This document shows, one piece after another, positions 14,181-43,867 of a DNA stretch of 64,000 bases. The stretch spans positions 1 through 64,000 of the forward strand of contig JACREZ010000039.1 of the NCBI GenBank assembly GCA_016212665.1, written 5' to 3'. The position numbers were made by a program, and so were the translations under genes. Each line of letters begins with the position of its first letter. Positions within the stretch are counted from its first letter, which is position 1. The notes under the pieces were generated by a model. The model had not been told where the DNA came from. It did no database searches and was given only the letters and a program-made list of their open reading frames with translations. This DNA is from Ignavibacteriota bacterium. Lineage in GTDB: Bacteria > Bacteroidota > Ignavibacteria > UBA10030 > SZUA-254.

Positions 14181-14196
14181 TGGCATATTAATTGCC
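14181..14196 (+). promoter_or_regulatory. Sigma-54 type -24/-12 promoter
   Basis: TGGCAT-N5-TTGCC, with GG at 14182-14183 and GC at 14194-14195 exactly ten bases apart, matches the RpoN consensus. Transcription would start near 14207 and give a leader of about 105 bases to the giant surface-protein gene. The same 11 bases occur at 38985 and 43852. Confidence 0.7.
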
Positions 14197-17300: not shown

Positions 17301-20300
17301 ATACCGCTTCAACTTCCGTGAGTTTAACAGTTGATGCAACAGCGCCTTCGGTCGCAGTTACATCGCCTGCGAACGGTTCAACAACAAGCGATAACACTCC
17401 GCTGTTGACCGGAACAGCAGAGACTGGAACAACTGTTCGTGTGTATGTTGATGCAAGTCTTGTCACAACAATTTCTGTGAACGGTTCAGGCACGTGGAGT
17501 TACACTTCTGCAACACTTGTTGACGGTTCACATACTGTCTCGGCTACGGCGACAGATAACGCGGGGAATCTCGGAACATCTGCTACGAATACATTTACCG
17601 TATTCGGAACTGCACCGACTATTACAATCAACAGCGGCAACCCGATTCGAACAAACGATAACACGCCAACGATAACAGGAACATCGAATACTCCGGCAGG
17701 AACAACAGTTTCTGTTACCATCAATGGTTCGACAAATACAACAACGGTTCAATCAGGTGGAACATGGTCGATCAATTGGCCAACGACATTAAGCGATGGA
17801 AATTATCCTGTTACTGCAAGCGTGACGTACGCAAGTCAGACTGCAACCGATACGCAGACATTAACAATTGATACTGCCGCGCCGGCAGTTACGGTTGATA
17901 GCCCCGCAAACGGAAGTGCAACAAACGATAACACGCCGTTGATTGCTTCGGGAAATACGGAACCCGGCGTAAGTGTCGTGGTCTCAGTTGACGGAACACC
18001 TGTTGATACTGTCACAGCAGACAACAATGGCGACTGGAGTACGACTTCACCGACACTTGGCGATGGCTCACATACAGTCTCCGCAACAGCAACTGATGTT
18101 GTCGGAAATACTTCAACAGCAAGTTCGACCTTCACAGTTGATACGACTGTTCCAACGATTACGATTACCGGTGGCGCTTCTGTAACAACAAATGACAGAA
18201 CCCCAACCATCAGCGGAACGACTTCCGAGGCAAACGGGACAACGATTTCTATTACGCTCAACAGTCAAACATTTACTACGACTGCATCCGGCGGAACGTG
18301 GACAATCAATTGGCCCACAACTTTATCTGACGGAACATATCCGACAACCGCAAGTGTCACCGATGCAGCTGGAAACTCTGCATCAGCAAATCAAAGCATA
18401 CTTGTTGACGGCACCGCTCCTTCGGTTGCAATCAGTTCCCCCACGAACGGCTCAACGACGAGCGATAATACTCCATTGATTAACGGTACCGCAGAAACAG
18501 GAACAACCGTACGTGTGTATGTTGATGGAAACTTAGTTACAACAATTCCTGTGAATGGTTCGGGAACGTGGAGTTATACTTCCGCAACACTTACCGATGG
18601 TTCTCATACAGTTCAGGCAACCGCTACCGATAATGCAGGAAATGTCGGAACATCTTCAACGAATACGTTTACCGTTTCTTCTGTTTCACCGACAGTTACT
18701 ATCAACAACGGAAGTCCGATTCAAACGAACGATAATACTCCGACAATTACCGGAACCTCCAACACTCCGGCGGGGACAACTGTTTCCTTAACTATCAACG
18801 GAACAACCAATACAACGACTGTTCAGGCAAACGGAACATGGTCTATTACGTGGACGAATCTTGCAGACGGTAATTACCCGATGACCGCAAGTGTAACGTA
18901 TTTAAGTCAGACAGGAACCGATACACAAACATTAACAATTGATACTGCCGCACCGACCGTAACAATTGATAGTCCGGCGAACGGAAGTTCAACAAATGAT
19001 AACACGCCATTGATTGCTTCTGGAAGTACTGAGCCCGGCGTAACTGTTATTGTCAAAGTTGACGGAACTCCGGTTGATACAGTTACAGCAGATAACAACG
19101 GCGATTGGAGTACAACATCACCTACATTAAGCGATGGCTCACATACGGTTTCGGCAACTGCAACCGATGTTGTGGGAAATACATCAACAGTCAGTTCAAC
19201 CTTTACTGTTGATACAGTCGTTCCGACGATTACGATTAATGGCGGAGCCACTATTATTACCAATGACAGAACGCCAACCATCAGTGGTACAACATCCGAA
19301 CCGAACGGTACTACGATTTCCATTACGTTAAACAGTGAAACCTTTACAACCACTGCATCCGCCGGAACATGGACGATTGATTGGCCCACAACGTTATCTG
19401 ATGCAACATATCCTGTCTCAGCAAGCGTCACCGATGCGGCTGGAAATTCAGTCTCCACGAGTAAGAATATCATTGTTGATGCAACCGCGCCATCTGTCGC
19501 AATTACTTCTCCGACAAATGGTTCAACAACAACCGACAACACGCCGCTCATAACCGGAACTGCCGCAACGGGAACAACTGTTCGCTTATACATTGATGGC
19601 AGTCTTGCAACGACAATTTCTGTGAATGGTTCAGGTACGTGGAGTTTCACTTCTTCAACTCTTGTTGATGGAGTCCATACCGTTCAGGCGACTGCAACCG
19701 ATAATGCAGGAAACGTCGGAACATCTTCGACAAATTCGTTTACGGTTGCAGGCACAGCGCCGACTGTTACCATCAATAACGGAAACCCGATTCGCACGAA
19801 CGATAATACACCAACAATTACAGGAACATCAAACACACCGGCAGGAACAACCGTCTCAATTACAATTAACGGTGTCACAAATACTACAACAGTTCAATCA
19901 GGCGGGACATGGTCTATCACGTGGACGAATCTCGCAGATGGAAATTATCCTGTCTCGGCAAGTGTAACGTATCTGACTCTGACTGCAACCGATACACAAA
20001 CATTAACAATTGATACAACCGCGCCGACCGTTACTATTGACAGTCCTGCAAACGGAAGCGCGACGAATGATAACACGCCGGTTATTTTCTCAGGAAATAC
20101 CGAACCCGGAATTACGGTAGTTATTGCAGTTGATGGAACTCCGATTGATACTGTCATTGCGGATAACAATGGAGATTGGAGTACAACTTCACCATTGTTA
20201 AGCGATGGTCCTCATACCATTACAGCGACGGGAACGGACGTAGTCGGAAATTCTTCTGTGGCATCTGTGACAGTTACAATAGATACGGTTCTGCCTACCA

Positions 20301-37697: not shown

Positions 37698-38439
37698 ACC
37701 AAAACTTGAAAACAAATTGCAATTCGCTGAGAGCGTTGTCGTATTCACCGGCGCGGGTATTTCGGCAGAAAGTGGAGTGCCGACATTTCGCGGCGAAGAT
37801 GGCATCTGGAAAAAGATGAAGCCGGAGGAACTTGCAAACTTCGATGCGTTCATGCGCAACACGGAACTTGTATGGGATTGGTACAAACACCGCAAACGCA
37901 TCATGCAAAACATTCTGCCGAATGCGGGACATTATGCAATTGTGGAGATGGAACAGTTGTTCAAGAGCGTTGAAGTCATCACACAGAATATTGATAATCT
38001 TCATCGCCGCGCGGGAAGTACGATTGTGCATGAACTTCATGGAAATATCGAACGGAACTATTGTATCGGTTGCGGGAGAAACTACTCCAACGAAGAAATA
38101 TTTTTGCATGAACCTACGCCTCGTTGTACAACATGCAATGGTTTGATTCGTCCCGACGTAGTGTGGTTTGGTGAGAACCTTCCGGCGGATGCGTGGAACG
38201 CAAGCGTCAATGCCGCAGAGTTTGCCGATGTCTTCTTCGTCGTGGGGACATCAGCAGTTGTTTACCCCGCCGCCTCGCTCCCGACTCTTGCCCGTCGCTC
38301 AGGCGCATTCGTTGTTGAAATCAATATCGAACCGACGGAGTTAAGCAATTTCGCTCATGAAGTGTTACTTGGAAAATCCGGGGAAATTCTTCCGGCAATT
38401 GTTGAACTCCTCAGGAAGTTGCAGTTCCCTTCAGCATAA
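37687..38439 (+). CDS. cobB: NAD-dependent protein deacylase (sirtuin)
   Basis: A 250-residue class III sirtuin that removes acetyl or other acyl groups from lysines using NAD+. TGAGISAESGVPTFRG (NAD site, about 19-34), TQNIDNLH and the catalytic His in ELHGN (about 118) are present. The zinc is held by CIGC and CTTC. It is preceded by repeat-filled DNA with no clear Shine-Dalgarno. Confidence 0.95.
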   Translation: MTISPKLENKLQFAESVVVFTGAGISAESGVPTFRGEDGIWKKMKPEELANFDAFMRNTELVWDWYKHRKRIMQNILPNAGHYAIVEMEQLFKSVEVITQNIDNLHRRAGSTIVHELHGNIERNYCIGCGRNYSNEEIFLHEPTPRCTTCNGLIRPDVVWFGENLPADAWNASVNAAEFADVFFVVGTSAVVYPAASLPTLARRSGAFVVEINIEPTELSNFAHEVLLGKSGEILPAIVELLRKLQFPSA

Positions 38440-38462: not shown

Positions 38463-38581
38463 CGGGGCAGTCTCAAAAGTTAGATTTCACCGTAGGCGCA
38501 ACCTTAATGGTTGCGTTTCCACATCAAAAACGCAGACGTATAGTCTGCGGCTACACGCCAATCGGTCTTTTTGGATAGCCC
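38463..38581. repeat. Palindromic element with twin hairpins
   Basis: Two perfect 7-bp hairpins, CGCAACC/GGTTGCG (38497-38515) and CGCAGAC/GTCTGCG (38531-38549), lie between imperfect inverted ends (GGGGCAGTCTCAAAAG and CTTTTTGGATAGCCCC). This is the form of REP/MITE-type intergenic elements. It carries no protein. Confidence 0.6.
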
Positions 38582-38611
38582 CTACATTTTGTCGTTTTTG
38601 AGCCATTTTAC

Positions 38612-38833
38612 TGAATCAGTTCACAAATTTTGTGAACCGGTTCAGTAATTTGATGAACCGGTTCATCAGTTTTGTGAATTAATTCAGTAGTTTTGTGAAT
38701 TAGTTCACCGGATTAGTGAACTGGTTCAGTGATTTGATGATTTAGTTCACCTGTTTTATGAACTATTTCAGCACACTAATGAACTGATTCACAAGCGGAG
38801 TGAAGTAGTTCACAAGATTAGTGAATCAATAAA
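38612..38833. repeat. Eleven palindromic 21-bp tandem repeats
   Basis: A TGAA-N4-TTCA core (ideal TGAACCGGTTCA) begins at 38612, 38633, 38654, 38675, 38696, 38717, 38738, 38759, 38780, 38801 and 38822, a pitch of exactly 21 with no slip. The unit at 38738 reads TGAT and the last one is partial. The nine-base spacers vary, often ending TTTG or TTAG. All reading frames contain stops. It ends about 150 bases before the sigma-54-like promoter. Confidence 0.95.
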
Positions 38834-38984: not shown

Positions 38985-39000
38985 TGGCATAGCCTTTGCC
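38985..39000 (+). promoter_or_regulatory. Sigma-54 type -24/-12 promoter before hemN
   Basis: TGGCAT-N5-TTGCC with GG-N10-GC spacing, identical in its 11 fixed bases to the sites at 14181 and 43852. Start expected near 39011, giving a leader of about 213 bases to hemN that contains a palindromic element and heptameric repeats. Confidence 0.68.
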
Positions 39001-39030: not shown

Positions 39031-39171
39031 GAGATTGCTTCGAGGTTGTCCGAATAGTCCTTCATCATTCGACATTCATTGTTCGACATTTGATATTTGA
39101 GTAAATAACGAATATCGAATGACGAATTCTGAACTCCGAAGTTGCTTTTTTGGGACAGCCTCTCGCAATGA
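39031..39171. repeat. Inverted-repeat element holding heptameric repeats
   Basis: The left end GATTGCTTCGAGGTTGTCC and the right end GGACAGCCTCTCGCAATG are imperfect inverted copies. The right end resembles those of the elements at 38463 and 60608. The interior (39066-39142) is eleven 7-base words (CATTCGA, CATTCAT, TGTTCGA, CATTTGA, and so on). It lies in the hemN leader. Confidence 0.5.
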
Positions 39172-42231: not shown

Positions 42232-43590
42232 ATGGCAGACAAAATTTTAGTTGTTGACGATGAAAAAATCATACGCGAATCCATCTCATTTATTTTGAAG
42301 AAGGAAGGATTTACTGTCACCGAAGCGGCGAACGGAAAAGAAGCATACAACAAGTTGCTTTCCGAGTCGTACGATTTGGTTATTACCGATTTGGAAATGC
42401 CGGAGATGAAAGGAATCGAATTGCTCGACCATGTTCTGCACATCAATCCGCAGGCATTGGTTGTTATTATCACTGCGTACGGTTCGCTCGAAACAGCAAT
42501 TGCCGCGCTGAGAAAAGGAGCAAGCGATTACATTCTGAAGCCCATTGAGTTTGATGAGTTGTTGGTGAAAATTCATCGCCTGTTAGAACACAAAAAACTC
42601 GCGCAGGAAAATCAATATCTGAGAAAAGAACTGAACAGGGACTATGATTTTTCGAAGATTGTAGGTAAAAGCCCGGAGATGACGAAAGTGTTCGATATTA
42701 TTCAGAAAGTTTCTCAGACGGATAGCACGGTATTAATTTCCGGGAAAAGCGGAACGGGAAAGGAACTTGTTGCGCGGGCAATTCATTATACAAGCAGGAG
42801 AAATGAAAAGCCCTTTATTGCTGTCAATGCCGGGGCGATTCCGGAAACGTTGATTGAAAGCGAGTTATTCGGACATAAAAAAGGTTCGTTTACCGGCGCG
42901 GTGGCTGATAAAATCGGATATTTCAAAGCGGCGGATGGAGGAACATTGTTGCTGGATGAAATCAGCGAGATGCCATTTATTCTTCAGGTAAAATTACTTC
43001 GTGCAATTGAACAGAGGGAGATAACTCCCGTTGGAACGTCAACCCCGGTTTCGATAGATGTCCGGATCATCGCATCAACAAATCGCGAACTTCATAAAGA
43101 AGTGGAAGCGGGAAGATTCAGACAAGACCTGTATTACCGGTTGAATGTAGTTGAAATTCACCTTCCCTCTCTTTCCGAACGTCGTGCTGATGTGCCACTT
43201 CTCGTCGAGCATTTTGTGGATAAATACAAAAAGGAAATGAGGAAAAATATCAAAGGAGTTAACAATGAAGTGATGCGTTTGTTGATGCAACACGATTGGA
43301 AAGGGGAAATCCGAGAACTTGAAAACATCATCGAGCGCGCCGTTATTTTCTGTTCCGGTGATTTCATCACCATGAACGACTTGCCGGAGTTTTTACACGT
43401 GGAGACTGAGGTCACGGCTCATGGAGAAAAAGCTTCCTTGCAAGCTGCGCTTAGTGATTTTGAACGGCAATACATTCTTACTGTTTTGCGGAAGTATCGT
43501 TTCGATAAAGACCAAACTGCGATGGAACTGAAAATCAGTTTACCGACGTTGTATCGGCGTATTAAGGACTTGAATATCAGTCAGACTTAA
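42232..43590 (+). CDS. NtrC-family sigma-54 activator
   Basis: A 452-residue response regulator. The receiver has Asp53 in LVITDLEMP. The AAA+ domain has Walker A GKSGTGKE (about 172-179), the sigma-54 contact loop GSFTGA (about 217-222, a known variant of GAFTGA) and Walker B LLLDEIS. The C-terminal Fis-type helix-turn-helix is at about 410-448 (DQTAMELKISLPTLYRRIKDL). It should activate sigma-54 promoters from upstream palindromic sites. Three such promoters lie in this window, two of them flanking this gene's neighbourhood. AGGAAAA lies upstream of its ATG. Confidence 0.95.
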   Translation: MADKILVVDDEKIIRESISFILKKEGFTVTEAANGKEAYNKLLSESYDLVITDLEMPEMKGIELLDHVLHINPQALVVIITAYGSLETAIAALRKGASDYILKPIEFDELLVKIHRLLEHKKLAQENQYLRKELNRDYDFSKIVGKSPEMTKVFDIIQKVSQTDSTVLISGKSGTGKELVARAIHYTSRRNEKPFIAVNAGAIPETLIESELFGHKKGSFTGAVADKIGYFKAADGGTLLLDEISEMPFILQVKLLRAIEQREITPVGTSTPVSIDVRIIASTNRELHKEVEAGRFRQDLYYRLNVVEIHLPSLSERRADVPLLVEHFVDKYKKEMRKNIKGVNNEVMRLLMQHDWKGEIRELENIIERAVIFCSGDFITMNDLPEFLHVETEVTAHGEKASLQAALSDFERQYILTVLRKYRFDKDQTAMELKISLPTLYRRIKDLNISQT

Positions 43591-43851: not shown

Positions 43852-43867
43852 TGGCATAATGATTGCC
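43852..43867 (+). promoter_or_regulatory. Sigma-54 type -24/-12 promoter before receiver gene
   Basis: TGGCAT-N5-TTGCC with exact GG-N10-GC spacing. Start expected near 43878, 27 bases ahead of the receiver ATG. It lies just downstream of the sigma-54 activator gene. Confidence 0.72.

Follow-up and report, generated by a model that had tools for sequence, protein, structure and literature searches.

In the centromere of the F plasmid (sopC, or parS-F), a 43-bp unit with ParB sites is repeated twelve times in tandem (PMC8465637). The arrays described here are like it in that sites on the DNA follow one another in tandem, about four helical turns apart, beside a linked gene, and several of those linked to a protein family that we call X also have a period of 43 bp. 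However, the array in the window (the whole stretch of DNA that was analyzed, 64,000 nucleotides) is chromosomal and has a unit about half as long, no ParA or ParB relation was found for X or for two other linked families, Y and Z, and there are tens of arrays per genome, each with a private unit. ParA/ParB-type genes are also not found beside the window array, whose neighbors are Sir2 and HemN. In plasmid pSM19035, parS is made of contiguous 7-bp heptad sites (PMC9499535). These sites too are short and gapless, and parS function needs several of them in a row, but they are only 7 bp long, follow one consensus, have no 21-bp dyad unit and belong to a plasmid partition context.

For GTAG REP elements and RAYT transposases we follow the published REP definition (PMC3733652). 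REP elements share with our arrays that they are intergenic, dispersed and palindromic, and REP-like palindromes adjoin several 21-bp arrays. However, a REP element is one hairpin or a pair of them from a single sequence family and not a 21-bp tandem array with private units, and the GTAG tag of REP and BIME elements is absent from the units of the window array, which REP-like palindromes only adjoin. Intergenic TAACTGA heptamer repeats are known from Beggiatoaceae, Cyanobacteria and Bacteroidetes (PMC4679880). As here, a genome carries numerous direct-repeat arrays between its genes, often on the 5' side of one, and the two periods are related by a factor of three. Their sequence is one fixed heptamer, whereas in the present arrays the units vary by locus and only the pitch is shared. 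The known repeats of type III toxin-antitoxin systems are longer and act as RNA. They too form, at several loci per genome, a tandem array that is specific to the locus and lies 5' of a small gene, but X-type arrays lie 3' of the gene, a PADLOC search with X, Y, Z and three other linked proteins gave no match, and no recognized toxin gene was found among the neighbors of the window array. No known family tested matches the array class, and the open-access full-text literature yielded no account of arrays of this kind. This does not prove that none exists, and an older description is possible.

The window array and its homologs

The array lies at 38612..38833 and consists of eleven units with the core TGAA-N4-TTCA, the last of them degenerate. 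The sequence-only reading had described eleven palindromes at an exact 21-bp pitch. The eleven units stand, as does the pitch, which is exact from 38612 with zero indels, but the core is perfect in only nine of them: the unit at 38738 contains TGAT, and that at 38822 has TAAA at its end (two changes). The motif TGAAN4TTCA occurs 15 times in the 64-kb window against about 1.4 expected from base composition, nine of the 15 being inside the array, and the lag-21 autocorrelation of the array has a z of 10.8. The minus-strand frame of ELIHKxx heptads with several stops, noticed earlier, exists and is interrupted by stops, as is every other frame (16, 3, 6, 12, 4 and 6 stops in the six frames, at least three in each). 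The array is intergenic. To its left a Sir2-family gene (PF02146; 37687..38439, plus strand) ends at 38439, and to its right a HemN-type radical SAM gene (PF04055, PF06969; 39221..40603, plus strand) starts at about 39221, with an alternative in-frame start possible upstream at 39119.

A GTAG-type REP-like palindrome pair at 38492..38554 (GTAGGCGCAACC.. on the plus strand, GTAGCCGCAGAC.. on the minus strand) recurs as a pair elsewhere in the genome. We treat it as a neighboring feature, not shown to be a member of the array. The two palindromes are about 51 bp apart, and similar pairs are found at L183 6825-6887, L237 1986-2048 and L239 9430-9492; such recurring pairs lie near several 21-bp arrays of this genome. 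On the other side, a dispersed repeat rich in TTCGACATTC is present at 39061-39140 of the window, between a sigma-54-like site (see below) and hemN. It is also found at L223 ~3707 and other loci, and the corresponding spacing is shorter in the congener G002.

The search for the array in this genome and in related ones, the latter proposed earlier as a check, yielded two homologs. One, of the window-type unit, is in the same genome (C16:320101-320301); the other, in G002, lies 97 bp after a gene of family X that encodes about 160 aa. Both are placed between convergent genes. The three arrays share a 34-bp left flank, CCCTACATwTTGyCGTTTTTGAGyCrTTTTA, which in the window is at 38578..38611, and their first two units are alignable. 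When units 3-10 are compared among the three arrays, core identity is 0.91-0.97 and that of the other 13 positions 0.30-0.42, with no indels. The same contrast is seen within the window array, where identity is 0.93 in the core and 0.43 outside it, so that the earlier statement that cores are kept while spacers vary applies both within and between arrays. Loss of the palindromic core at constant length had been named as evidence against a binding array; the core is instead retained between the homologs. Because neutral decay would hit core and spacers alike, the simplest reading is that selection acts on the half-sites and the 21-bp pitch.

A class of arrays and its linked proteins

The period of 21 bp is not confined to these arrays. 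In a census of periods that covered 1.26 Mb, or roughly one third of the genome, in 20-kb stretches at lags 10-65, about 25 loci had a 21-, 42- or 63-bp period, nearly all of them intergenic, which extrapolates to some 80 arrays per genome if the 1.26 Mb are representative. Each array has a unit of its own; units differ from locus to locus and the pitch is common. Some arrays of the wider class have periods of 41, 43 or 44 bp, which are not multiples of three and are near four helical turns. The other periodic loci of the census had repeats of 7/14 bp or, in a few cases, of 15, 16 or 24 bp, or were runs of N. The sequence-only reading had proposed a multi-site array facing one side of the helix, and the retention of core and pitch, together with the dominance of 21, 42 and 63 bp in the genome-wide class, supports this. 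Dyad symmetry (P<=0.05 by column permutation) was found in 24 of 28 arrays from many taxa (Fisher 3e-28), part of this set having been picked through a palindromic pattern; the symmetric arrays include ones that were reached via X without a palindrome filter. Among the arrays of this genome about half are significantly symmetric, indicating that pitch, not symmetry, defines the class, and that dimer binding is not general. Many of the genomes examined are MAGs.

Many arrays of the census lie 60-360 bp 5' of genes for small proteins without known function, among them Y and Z, a second Fn3-tailed family and an AARIIRDIGG family. About ten arrays have no such neighbor, and the window array, which has no X, Y or Z gene beside it, is one of these. 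Being intergenic and non-coding, with a 21-bp period over at least five units, it is an orphan member of the class. At L204, the gene of a Y1 transposase (PF01797, RAYT-like; 18461-19078, plus strand) is separated by 242 bp from a 21-bp array, which in turn lies 5' of a family Z gene at a distance of 125 bp.

X is a family of about 160 aa and of no known function that adjoins arrays in three genera. A profile search found 37 matches in 21 of the 245 genomes of the taxonomic class, and in about 17 of these 21 an array accompanies X. Of 30 regions downstream of X, 16 have z>=5 at lag 21, 17 at lag 42 and 13 at lag 63; lags 22 and 43 pass this threshold in 3 each and lag 44 in 2, the rest never in more than 1, and upstream of X no lag does so. 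Counted as arrays at lag 21 or 42, the ratio is 21/33 downstream versus 0/32 upstream. In a second sample of 20 new X loci from other classes of the phylum, scored at the same threshold, 11 have a downstream array at 21 or 42 bp and three more at 43, 44 or 64 (14/20). No real upstream array was found at these loci, the single counted case being a run of N. In family Y, with a helical N-terminus and an Fn3-like C-terminus, 16 of 17 loci have the array upstream, among them all three of this genome's copies and nine of the ten of G145; in family Z, which has a Pfam fn3 domain, six of seven do. Against the background rate of arrays in this genome, about 1.7% per 650 bp, the binomial P values for linkage to X, Y and Z are 3e-29, 1e-27 and 2e-10, respectively, with loci treated as independent although paralogs are not, and with the rate of one genome applied to others. 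The polarity is fixed in this phylum: arrays are 3' of X and 5' of Y and Z.

X is predicted to be helical, with a 55-residue helix and a basic tail. Comparison of X with Pfam, NCBIfam, PADLOC, PHROGs and PDB sequences produced no usable match, and a fold search against the PDB gave no structural match; for Y only the Fn3 half was matched. No known DNA-binding fold was found in X or Y, nor a ParA/ParB-type Pfam match. X was not found in phages, and the one plasmid case, in Candidatus Thiodictyon syntrophicum (L159 4001-4468), has polyamine and acetate genes as neighbors and no array.

Readings of the arrays

The reading that we favor, with modest confidence, is that the window array is a non-coding DNA-level platform of phased protein-binding sites, an orphan of the genome-wide 21-bp class. 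It is based on the retention of the pitch and the TGAA/TTCA half-sites, on the same pitch in arrays of other units, and on the fixed polarity relative to X, Y and Z. Counting against it are X loci that have no array, including the plasmid copy in another phylum, the lack of a known DNA-binding fold in X and Y, the symmetry of only about half of the arrays in this genome, the opposite polarity at X and at Y and Z, and the orphan state of the window array. Two helical turns per unit, dyad half-sites and the lack of indels fit touching dimers on one helix face. A dimeric protein would bind each dyad, and adjacent dimers, stacked along the same side of the helix, would build up a cooperative filament or cluster. 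Each array may have a recognition sequence of its own, matched by its own binder, and could serve the linked gene as a local switch, insulator or anchor. Protein docking on the window array is thus proposed from the arrangement of its sites. The flank and the first two units match the X-linked array of the congener, suggesting that the window copy may have arisen when an X-linked array was dispersed or lost its X.

A broader proposal, which we put forward tentatively as less probable than the platform itself, is a modular system in which phased, locus-specific arrays are each paired with a small protein (X 3', Y or Z 5'), and the protein, or a partner that it specifies, forms a nucleoprotein filament on its own array. 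If so, genomes throughout the phylum would each have tens of addressable sites, with the window array as an orphan address. A constant 21-bp pitch over unrelated sequences, combined with polar linkage, suggests an overlooked DNA-organizing or regulatory system in the phylum. The arrays also give X, Y and Z a testable context, namely whether the protein, or what it recruits, coats the neighboring array.

The fixed polarity would also be expected if the arrays were transcribed with their neighbors, as the 3' UTR of X or the 5' leader of Y and Z, and acted as strings of small hairpins. These might, e.g., shield mRNA, titrate a protein that binds RNA, or work like the RNA antitoxin of type III toxin-antitoxin systems. 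Compared with dinucleotide shuffles, the window array indeed folds far better on either strand (z about -10 and -11). However, it folds no better than when unit order or spacers are permuted, so the fold follows from the repeated dyads, and unit permutation also rules out a long-range RNA hairpin by design. The dyad arms do not covary consistently (mean z +0.55 for dyad 1, a value inflated because this dyad was chosen for best pairing, and -0.76 for dyad 2), and no Rfam family reaches its gathering score over the array, the low-scoring miRNA-like matches being far below the cut-offs and taken as noise. With the PADLOC result for the linked proteins and the location of the two homologs between convergent genes, an RNA element appears unlikely, and RNA structure as the basis of the arrays is not supported. 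We give still less weight to a neutral or selfish minisatellite, that is, tandem repeats that spread and expand without host function, perhaps with REP via a tyrosine transposase. The flank shared by the window, C16 and G002 arrays at different sites would suit such spread, as would the REP-like GTAG palindromes near several arrays and the Y1 transposase gene near one, but the core is kept while spacers are lost, unlike in neutral drift, one period dominates, and the linkage to X, Y and Z is strongly polar.

Two further readings had been raised from the sequence. One was an array of NtrC-type enhancers ending about 150 bp before a sigma-54-like promoter. The promoter part holds: the site TGGCATAGCCTTTGC (38985..38999, plus strand) begins 152 bp after the array, and in G002, G004 and G009 TGGCATA-N4-TTGC likewise precedes hemN, by about 88-101 bp. 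Matches to the strict sigma-54 consensus are no more frequent in the genome than matches to its reversed control (2+0 vs 2+4), so the argument rests on this conservation, from which the site is probably genuine. The gene at 42232 codes for a sigma-54 activator with a Fis-type HTH, and this or another regulator might bind the array to drive the promoter and hemN. However, no periodic array was found in the 1.5 kb upstream of hemN in the same three relatives, which means that the window array is not needed for the promoter; the two are probably independent. As the homologous arrays also sit between convergent genes, and the arrays of the wider class, each with a unit of its own, are found at unrelated genes, the enhancer role is very improbable. 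The other reading, a decayed coding repeat whose units once encoded coiled-coil heptads, had been the main alternative and is now rejected as barely credible. It draws on the equality of 21 bp and 7 codons, on genuine-looking (MKDFKDE)n coding repeats that match the same DNA pattern in many phyla, and on one 21-bp array of this genome that looks coding, at L239 2368-3156 on the minus strand, where a 262-aa ORF with heptads (LNEAYRSFNESNRLLNEAYRNW) overlaps the array. Against it are the stops in all frames of the window array, the periods that are not multiples of three, and the absence of a codon-phase pattern of variability from the 28 arrays (P 0.97) and from 22 arrays of this genome (P 0.97). 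An intact coding version in relatives, which had been named as evidence against a binding array, was not seen in the genus. Thus, repeats of 21 bp need not be coding heptads.

Sites of the sigma-54 type, TGGCATA-N4-TTGCC, occur three times on the plus strand of the window, at 14181, 38985 and 43852. The last is just before an ORF at 43863, beside the sigma-54 activator gene.

Similar patterns in other genomes

A pattern of four exact units matched 43 stretches in a collection of 84,980 genomes. About two thirds of them resemble coding coiled-coil heptads, e.g., MKDFKDE, and constitute a false-positive class. The remaining stretches look non-coding, a call made from stops and unit variation and not gene by gene; they come from Zoogloea, a Planctomycetaceae MAG (six loci), Pyrinomonadaceae, a Chloroherpeton MAG and others. 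The core TGAACCGGTTCA or close variants are found at 21-bp pitch in unrelated phyla (L284, L060, L071, L077 and the window at 38633), and in L284 the array of this type is located downstream of X. In a genome of the same order, a short 21-bp array of GTGAATCACTTCACATGCCAC-type units is present near a secreted protease-like gene (L034 ~2010-2120). The six arrays of the Planctomycetaceae MAG (L045, L055, L056, L061, L062 and L066) have TGAAGAACTTCA units, and four of them have a common right end, TGAAGAACGTTAwTGTAC, followed by T-rich sequence.
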